Part shown: positions 28,209-28,594 of the stretch, one piece after another | Layout of the letters: every line of letters begins with the position of its first letter | Numbering within the stretch: the first letter of the stretch is position 1 | NCBI GenBank assembly: GCA_947625695.1 | Contig: CANQPO010000004.1 | Location: 1-51,111 of the forward strand | Reading direction: 5' to 3' | Source of the DNA: an uncultured Clostridia bacterium | GTDB taxonomy: Bacteria; Bacillota; Clostridia; Christensenellales; Borkfalkiaceae | Length of the DNA stretch: 51,111 nt | Made by a program: the position numbers and the translations under genes | Notes under the pieces: model-generated | The model's database searches: none | The model's input: only the letters and a program-made list of their open reading frames with translations | What the model was told of the DNA's origin: nothing

Positions 28209-28312
28209 TAATTAGAACAGCGGGGCGAAATGACATATAGAAAGTCGGCAGTCCGAGCGACCAATTTCATTTCCACGGAAAAAGGGAACGCGTTTTGCGT
28301 TCTCTTTTTCCG

Positions 28313-28337
28313 TGGAGCTGATGAGCAGACTCGGACT
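28313..28337 (-). pseudogene. Detached tRNA-Thr(GGU) 3' end
   Basis: These 25 bases equal the 3' end of the intact tRNA (28519-28543), including CCA, and are followed on the minus strand by a second copy of the terminator. No anticodon arm is attached. Confidence 0.85.
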
Positions 28338-28483
28338 TCGTCGCCGCACGCCTGCTTTTCACGCTTTTCTTACGAAAAGCTCCCCTTTCAGGCGGCGTCT
28401 CCTCTTCCCACAAAAATACTGCGTCTTTTTGCGGGAGCCCTCTTTTCGGTCGGCAGTCCGAGAGACCAATTTCATTTCCACGG

Positions 28484-28514
28484 AAAAAGGGAACGCGTTT
28501 TGCGTTCCCTTTTT
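28484..28514 (-). terminator. Rho-independent terminator of tRNA-Thr(GGU)
   Basis: On the minus strand the stem GGGAACGC / GCGTTCCC with a five-base loop is followed by TTTTT. An outer stem extends it so that the encoded CCA lies in a CCACGG/CCGTGG pairing. Confidence 0.85.
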
Positions 28515-28518
28515 TCCG

Positions 28519-28594
28519 TGGAGCTGATGAGCAGACTCGGACTGCCGACCTCGTCCTTACCAAGGACGCGCTCTACCTGCTGAGCTACACCAGC
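28519..28594 (-). tRNA. tRNA-Thr, anticodon GGU
   Basis: This 76-nt cloverleaf has acceptor GCTGGTG/CATCAGC (one G-T pair), D stem GCTC/GAGC, anticodon stem CGTCC/GGACG around loop TTGGTAA (anticodon GGT, reading ACC and ACT) and an encoded CCA. The promoter is at 28641-28669. Just past its terminator the sequence contains an exact inverted copy of the 14-base T-arm segment. Confidence 0.95.

Follow-up and report, generated by a model that had tools for sequence, protein, structure and literature searches.

Why a tRNA gene should be followed by a second copy of its own 3' end, with a terminator, an inverted piece of its own arm and a hairpin-rich insert between the two, is the question raised by two tRNA-Thr genes in the 51,111-nt window analysed here, which lies on contig C4 of the source genome (G000; 1.89 Mb, 81.6% complete) and begins at that contig's first base. 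At tRNA-Thr(GGT), referred to below as locus 2, the first-pass annotation had described a duplicated unit at 28244-28337 and 28449-28543, and the comparison bore this out as 66 nt at 97% identity with a spacing of 205 and a further 33 nt at 100% with a spacing of 206, the two unit copies differing by one 1-nt length difference. The inverted T arm that it had placed beside this gene was likewise found, and found a second time further downstream (Table 1). Read in the direction of the gene, locus 2 consists of tRNA-Thr(GGT), a first terminator (T1), an inverted tRNA fragment (rcF), a 105-nt hairpin element (E1), a direct copy of the last 25 nt of the tRNA (F), a second terminator (T2) and a second rcF. 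The CGACGA tail of E1 abuts the second tRNA fragment, and the T1 hairpin is nested inside a longer imperfect palindrome at 28472-28527. The second rcF is probably the start of a next unit that has been cut off at this locus, since short remnants of the element start follow it in two relatives, G006 and G005 (by eye). Beside the array, a dispersed palindromic repeat occurs twice in window positions 27961-28184; elsewhere in G000, E1 copies interrupt the middle of such repeats.

Table 1. Components of the two tRNA-Thr arrays, in window coordinates.
Feature	Position	Strand	Basis
Locus 2: tRNA-Thr (GGT), complete	28519..28594	-	ARAGORN; Rfam RF00005, 61.6 bits
Locus 2: T1, first terminator hairpin (arms 28484-28496, 28502-28514)	28484..28514	-	inverted repeat; putative terminator
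Locus 2: rcF1, inverted T-arm fragment	28448..28462	+	15 nt, 100% complementary to tRNA
Locus 2: E1 element, two-hairpin dispersed repeat	28338..28442	-	R1 match, 103.2 bits; 76% to Pro copy
Locus 2: F2, second copy of tRNA-Thr(GGT) last 25 nt, including CCA	28313..28337	-	25 nt exact
Locus 2: T2, second terminator hairpin	28279..28309	-	direct and inverted repeat
Locus 2: rcF2, second inverted T-arm fragment	28244..28257	+	inverted repeat
Locus 1: tRNA-Thr (CGT)	238..313	-	ARAGORN, Rfam
Locus 1: first terminator hairpin	202..238	-	inverted repeat
Locus 1: inverted tRNA fragment (anticodon stem 3' side to T stem), imperfect	~162..189	+	two 10-nt exact cores; extent by eye
Locus 1: E2 element (stem 85-100 with 134-149)	78..158	-	inverted repeat; extent by eye
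Locus 1: second copy of tRNA-Thr(CGT) last 33 nt	45..77	-	sequence match
Locus 1: second terminator	9..45	-	inverted repeat; contig ends at 1

The other gene, tRNA-Thr(CGT) or locus 1, had been said to show the same order of parts with a spacing of 193. It does follow the plan of locus 2 as far as the contig reaches, its F being 33 nt long and its inverted fragment longer, and the spacing corresponds to a perfect 77-nt repeat (1-77 and 194-270). A length of 77 nt is a common assembler k-mer, and caution is called for at a repeat of exactly this length in a window that starts at the first base of its contig. An assembly artefact or a mixture of strains is suggested further by the fact that 11 of the 29 tRNA matches in G000 (L001-L029) lie within 10 nt of a contig end where about 0.03 would be expected, so tRNA loci evidently break this assembly. 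Nevertheless, the array at locus 1 is not merely a product of assembly, because the duplicated 33-nt end and the same kind of insert are also found in G016, G007 and G041. Similar structures stand in the contigs of other genomes and the two copies at locus 2 are not identical; we rejected an artefact for locus 2 and regard it as the least credible of all the explanations weighed here. Just upstream of tRNA-Thr(CGT), window positions 343-401 hold a degenerate 59-nt copy at 80% of the sequence around the gene, with the anticodon region kept.

How widely such copies occur was surveyed at 205 tRNA loci, made up of the qualifying ones of G000, G005 and G009, part of G041, and orthologues of four tRNAs from relatives; loci with less than 150 nt downstream or with a tRNA shorter than 70 nt were left out. 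A direct copy was defined as an exact match to the gene's own 3' end of at least 15 nt, starting at least 40 nt downstream and within 450 nt, and an inverted copy as a match scoring at least 12 within 150 nt downstream. The control used other tRNAs as queries against the same downstream DNA with neighbouring tRNAs masked. Direct copies were present at 24 of the 205 loci against 0 of 1155 controls, inverted copies at 23 (control 0.09%), and both together at 14, rates that differ from genome rates because the sample is enriched for four tRNAs whose orthologues weigh heavily. The comparison of tRNA loci in G000 and its relatives proposed by the first-pass annotation thus extends the pattern beyond Thr. 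Its idea of a process that targets the Thr genes stands in one part, in that action on tRNA genes is well supported by the counts against their controls, and falls in the other, since 15 anticodon types are affected (13 without loci L109 and L279). With taxon labels assigned by hand, either type of copy was found at 29 of 156 loci of the genus and at 4 of 49 loci of other families, with 7 of 19 in G000. Counted by genome, inverted copies occurred at 7/19 loci in G000, 5/43 in G005, 2/32 in G009 and 2/24 in G041, against controls of 0.65, 0.19, 0.51 and 0.17%, respectively; direct copies in clustered tRNA loci did not exceed the control in this per-genome count because neighbouring tRNAs were unmasked there. 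The units are about 140-300 nt long, mostly near 200, carry no recognised gene or integrase, and recur at several tRNA genes of one genome. Three of the 24 loci with direct copies appear to be different in kind (L109, L279 and L307). At the last of these, tRNA-Pro(CGG) of G005, a run of short 3'-end fragments with alternating terminators between them lacks the usual element.

The inserts of the two Thr loci are not of one structure: the slot between the terminator with rcF and the following F is taken by different hairpin elements at different loci, in the window by E1 with two hairpins at locus 2 and by E2 with one hairpin at locus 1. The E2 stem resembles the first hairpin of E1 by eye only. 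What the two inserts have in common is their position between an inverted and a direct tRNA fragment able to pair, and at each locus rcF-E-F folds with the element inside the rcF/F stem (z of about -2.6 against 100 shuffles, one test each). Further families, E3, E4, E5 and E6, were named by eye, and a tested model exists for E1 only.

E1 is a dispersed, covarying element in which two hairpins are joined by a conserved AAGAGGAG linker, mostly with CGACGA at its end. Rfam searches of the window gave no match for the E1 insert at the gathering score, and those of six loci returned just tRNA, tmRNA, an end-cut RNase P and weak sub-gathering matches. The insert of locus 2 is 76% like a stretch adjoining tRNA-Pro(CGG), for which BLAST found 22 places in G000, some overlapping. 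In a MAFFT alignment of 16 copies, 21 of 30 base pairs had changed on both sides. The covariation score was 0.378, a value that none of 500 shuffles attained (0.118 for shuffles). Compensatory changes of this kind are reported to arise by template switching as well (PMC8794818), and covariation alone is therefore no proof of selection. Under stricter filters, a model of the element, R1, placed E1 in 42 of 61 genomes, namely 35 of 37 of the genus (G000 included) and, in the rest of the order, 7 of 24. Named genomes were scanned with a pattern as well, which gave at least 116 stretches; the 80 listed came mostly from uncultured Clostridia of rabbit and other animal guts, including Candidatus Coproplasma and Candidatus Borkfalkia. 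In 80 of the 116 stretches and one viral locus, R1 made 119 matches, spread over 77 of these 81 loci. The single pattern match among viral contigs (L277) had no R1 match and was dropped as a viral carrier; records from Paenibacillus (L207), Ruminococcus (L232) and Lachnospiraceae (L183), likewise without an R1 match, were taken as chance.

The placement of E1 with respect to tRNA genes was read from these matches, among which tandem copies do not count as independent. Of the 119, 69 lay no more than 300 nt from a tRNA or tmRNA gene, and 50 had no tRNA within that distance, in loci picked for holding E1, since the input to R1 consisted of the pattern-scan stretches. Twenty matches came to within 30 nt, where random placement gave 5.8 on average (maximum 12 in 200). 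In all 19 copies at most 4 nt away the CGACGA tail faces the gene, with 7 upstream on the same strand and 12 downstream on the opposite strand. Copies farther away also take other orientations, many of them upstream on the opposite strand at 40 nt or more, and the arrangement of the tRNA-Thr(GGT) locus, downstream on the same strand, recurs at L208, L213, L201, L190 and L239. Tandem runs of E1 are found at L182, L234, L215 and L193, and further copies interrupt the middle of another dispersed palindrome. Reversed E1 also abuts the 3' end of the tmRNA gene, at L045 (contig C13 of G000) and L199.

E2 look-alikes were recognised by eye in G007, G016, G041 and G023, and E2-type units stand at tRNA-Thr(CGT) in two families of the order. 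A likely E2 core (GGGGTCCCCGAAAA...TTTTTGGGG) was found in 23 of 297 genomes of the order, with the reversed pattern at zero among the matches listed; this pattern misses the window's own E2, which has a longer loop, and the kinship is drawn by eye. In 10 of 30 E2-core loci compared, two of them one and the same place, a tRNA lies no more than 300 nt away.

With this distribution in hand, the arrays might be thought to be kept for a function, as RNA or as insulators: extra terminators would stop read-through, and the inverted arm would pair with the 3' half of the tRNA, tuning its processing or expression. The strong covariation of E1, the better-than-shuffled folding of rcF-E-F at both window loci and the E2-type units in two families are consistent with this. 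However, presence varies among close relatives, tRNA-Thr(GGT) of G007 having no array, and E1 occurs in both orientations around tRNAs and, as the 50 of 119 copies in loci picked for E1 show, often away from them. We consider retention for a function unlikely.

Of the 24 loci with direct copies, 14 have an F that begins in the T loop, at 18-21 nt from the 3' end of the tRNA; in 3 it begins at 25 nt and in 4 at 33 nt, the remaining 3 being the divergent loci noted above. The junction is at 21 nt in 4/4 loci with E4 (Arg-ACG and Ser-GGA from three genomes) and at 19 nt in 5/5 with E5 (Ala-GGC, Arg-ACG, Ser-GCT twice and Ser-GGA), the family being judged by eye from the letters before F. For E1 it is at 25 nt, near the end of the T stem, in 3/3 Thr-GGT loci, and for E2 at 33 nt, in the variable region, in 4/4 Thr-CGT loci, each set being orthologues of one tRNA. 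At Pro genes E1 joins elsewhere, at some of them in the anticodon loop (by eye). Islands carried in tRNA genes have their crossovers in the anticodon loop, in the T loop or at the junction of T and acceptor stems (PMC4383910).

The reading that we prefer, to which we give an even chance, is that minimal non-coding cassettes enter tRNA genes, rebuild their 3' ends and increase in number through recombination. The locus would be a tRNA gene in which a few such cassettes have integrated in tandem. Each would comprise, in this order, F (running from one of the tRNA loops, usually the T loop, through CCA), a terminator of its own, rcF and the hairpin element. A cassette would enter the gene at that loop and regenerate the 3' end, so that the tRNA would stay functional, while the host's original 3' end and terminator would be pushed downstream. 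The terminator would be the sole cargo, and rcF-E-F, an imperfect palindrome with the element at its tip, may serve an inserting enzyme as its folded site. Later insertions and homologous recombination between F copies would enlarge, homogenise or truncate arrays, and locus 2 would then hold one full unit and a truncated second. The observations behind this reading are the modular order, the T-loop junctions, element bodies common to different tRNAs, arms that match the local tRNA, one mixed array, and the distal and proximal terminators of one tRNA-Ser pair.

The mixed array belongs to tRNA-Ser(GGA) of G009. Its E4 unit (86% to that of G005) comes before an E5 unit (74% to the one in G024); both have a terminator of their own, and a last 3' end with a third terminator comes after them. 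The pair is tRNA-Ser(GGA) of G003 and G005. An upstream block is common to both (77% over 681 nt), its distance from the tRNA being about 0.7 kb greater in G005; their distal terminators are of one type and their proximal ones unrelated. In G007, where this gene is free of an array, the only terminator is of the distal type of G003 and G005, the flanks being placed without demonstrated synteny to those two. The T arm of the G003 gene differs from that of G005, and in G003 rcF as well as F follows the local gene, even though the stretch from E4 to F is 87% conserved. Two observations speak for duplication instead: the Ser terminator taken as ancestral is related to one at tRNA-Ser(GCT) of G005, and G019, which has the upstream block in common with G003 and G005, has no array and yet another terminator. 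In G000 and G016, the first 190 nt behind tRNA-Ser(GGA) are 96% identical (L023, L382), possibly as a larger mobile element in that tRNA gene.

The main rival, possible but in our view doubtful, dispenses with dedicated mobility. A polymerase would fold back at the terminator hairpin and copy the tRNA end inversely, a quasi-palindrome template switch giving F-T-rcF; short homology in the T loop would let dispersed REP-like hairpin repeats land in, or be copied into, the palindrome, and the unit would multiply by tandem duplication. In favour of this rival, template switching is reported to create and maintain hairpins (PMC8794818), and G000 has F-T-rcF palindromes without a recognised element or 3'-end copy at Tyr-GTA, Ser-TGA and Ser-GCT, although these could also be collapsed arrays. 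The terminators lend themselves to both readings. Where one further copy of the 3' end is present, the likeness of T1 to T2 is 86% or more at 10 of 18 loci (one unscored; 9 of 17 without L109), which favours duplication. Among the six loci with two further copies, T1 resembles T2 (0.97-1.0) and not T3 in three (L120, L326 and L328), which favours insertion, whereas all terminators are alike at L131, all are different at L344, and L279 is off-plan. For tRNA-Thr(GGT), the orthologous locus of G007, with an upstream flank at 92.8% to G000, is free of an array. By eye, the one terminator there is like T1 of G000 and like T2 as well, so that at this locus duplication of the host terminator fits better than import. 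Template switching and duplication would, however, have to recur at many tRNA types, and they sit poorly with E4 and E5 each keeping one T-loop junction across different tRNAs, with the mixed E4 and E5 array, and with a common distal terminator beside unrelated proximal ones. No excised circle or conversion from an empty to a filled site was seen in this analysis. A terminator stem like CCGAACC/GGTTCGG stands behind different tRNA genes in several species (L374, L371, L389, L395 and L025), as if terminators move.

Profile searches of the 61 genomes, incomplete drafts searched with one profile for each enzyme, bear on which enzyme might insert or spread the elements. Y1_Tnp was matched in 15 and RVT_1 in 11. 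Spread of the elements by a RAYT (IS200/IS605-like) or a reverse transcriptase would suit the two-hairpin shape with its conserved linker, the tandem arrays, the insertion in palindromes and the Y1_Tnp match in G018, which has 19 E1 matches. It is nonetheless very unlikely, as G001, G005, G006, G008 and G020, all rich in E1, have neither a Y1_Tnp nor an RVT_1 match in these drafts. RAYT mobilisation is disfavoured by these five and by G000, which also has no Y1_Tnp match. Retroposition of element-tRNA chimeric RNAs, an idea prompted by elements that abut mature tRNA ends, is disfavoured in the same way by the lack of an RVT_1 match in G001, G005, G006, G008 and G016, and the sole RVT_1 match of G000 contains a stop.

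Tyrosine recombinases (PF00589) were matched in 60 of the 61 genomes, with a single gene each in G001, G006 and G009. The proteins of these three and of G041 are of one type by eye, 351-365 aa long, which we take to be Xer-like and presumably housekeeping, and two PF00589 genes of G000 are of another type, resembling phage or ICE integrases (by eye). An integrase common to the carriers was not seen in this census or among the six recombinase genes compared from G000, G001, G006, G009 and G041. That a trans-acting tyrosine recombinase would be the likeliest enzyme is thus no more than an inference. Were insertion true, these loci would offer a natural test bed for tRNA-loop recognition, and they may explain why assemblies of these gut bacteria break at tRNA loci; were template switching the cause instead, they would be an unusually clear natural record of that process.

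Among known systems, quasi-palindromic template-switch products (PMC8794818 and PMC7202029, as far as their accessible parts describe them) also place inverted copies beside hairpins, but a junction specific to an element family and the exchange of whole units are not predicted for them. REP/BIME sequences and other bacterial hairpin repeats associated with RAYTs, going by the available portion of PMC2817692, resemble E1 and E2 in being dispersed imperfect hairpins, sometimes in tandem, as the E1 matches and pair counts bear out. Here, in contrast, the elements are built into units with tRNA fragments, and several element-rich genomes have no Y1_Tnp match, G000 (81.6% complete), G001, G005 and G006 being without the transposase present in 15 of 61; a reverse transcriptase, as expected of a retroelement, was matched in 11 of 61 and not in G001, G005, G006 or G008.

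Another known kind is that of genomic islands in tRNA and tmRNA genes, placed there by a tyrosine integrase. Islander (PMC4383910) defines them by three features: the target is regenerated, a fragment of it is displaced, and an integrase gene is present. In them, too, insertion splits the gene at a loop and brings a new 3' part with it, the old 3' fragment comes to lie at the far end, and tandem arrays form. A complete tRNA at one end and a displaced 3' fragment in the same orientation at the other are what the 24 of 205 loci have (L109, L279 and L307 looking different), and their junctions lie in the T loop at 14 of 24, near the end of the T stem for E1 at Thr-GGT, in the variable region for E2, and by eye in the anticodon loop for E1 at some Pro genes. 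Unlike islands, the units here are about 140-300 nt long, free of genes and too short to hold an integrase of their own, have an inverted copy of a tRNA arm, and recur at several tRNA genes per genome. Fragments of tRNA genes have elsewhere been attributed to large mobile elements or to CRISPR spacers (PMC9897764). The top-ranked literature matches, a coverage with few subscription papers, contained no description of this tRNA-end cassette arrangement.

In form, the layout is like that of integron cassette arrays, with their integrase IntI and attC sites, where units also stand head to tail, each ending in an imperfect palindrome with a variable tip (attC), and arrays are mixed. The PF00589 census recognised no integron integrase here; in addition, the cargo would be a terminator and the platform a tRNA gene. 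Formally, F-terminator-rcF-E-F would work as an integron array does, rcF-E-F taking the part of attC, a likeness of layout and folding alone by which we claim no membership. A bolder proposal, which we hold to be rather improbable, is an undescribed recombination system in which many tRNA genes of one genome serve as attI-like platforms for cassettes of a terminator and a tRNA-repair end, captured via the folded rcF-E-F and stacked, perhaps by the housekeeping Xer-like recombinase. Large islands and phages classically land in tRNA genes. If inserts of about 200 nt split and repair several such genes in a single genome, with one junction for each element family, they would be, to our knowledge, the smallest of their kind.
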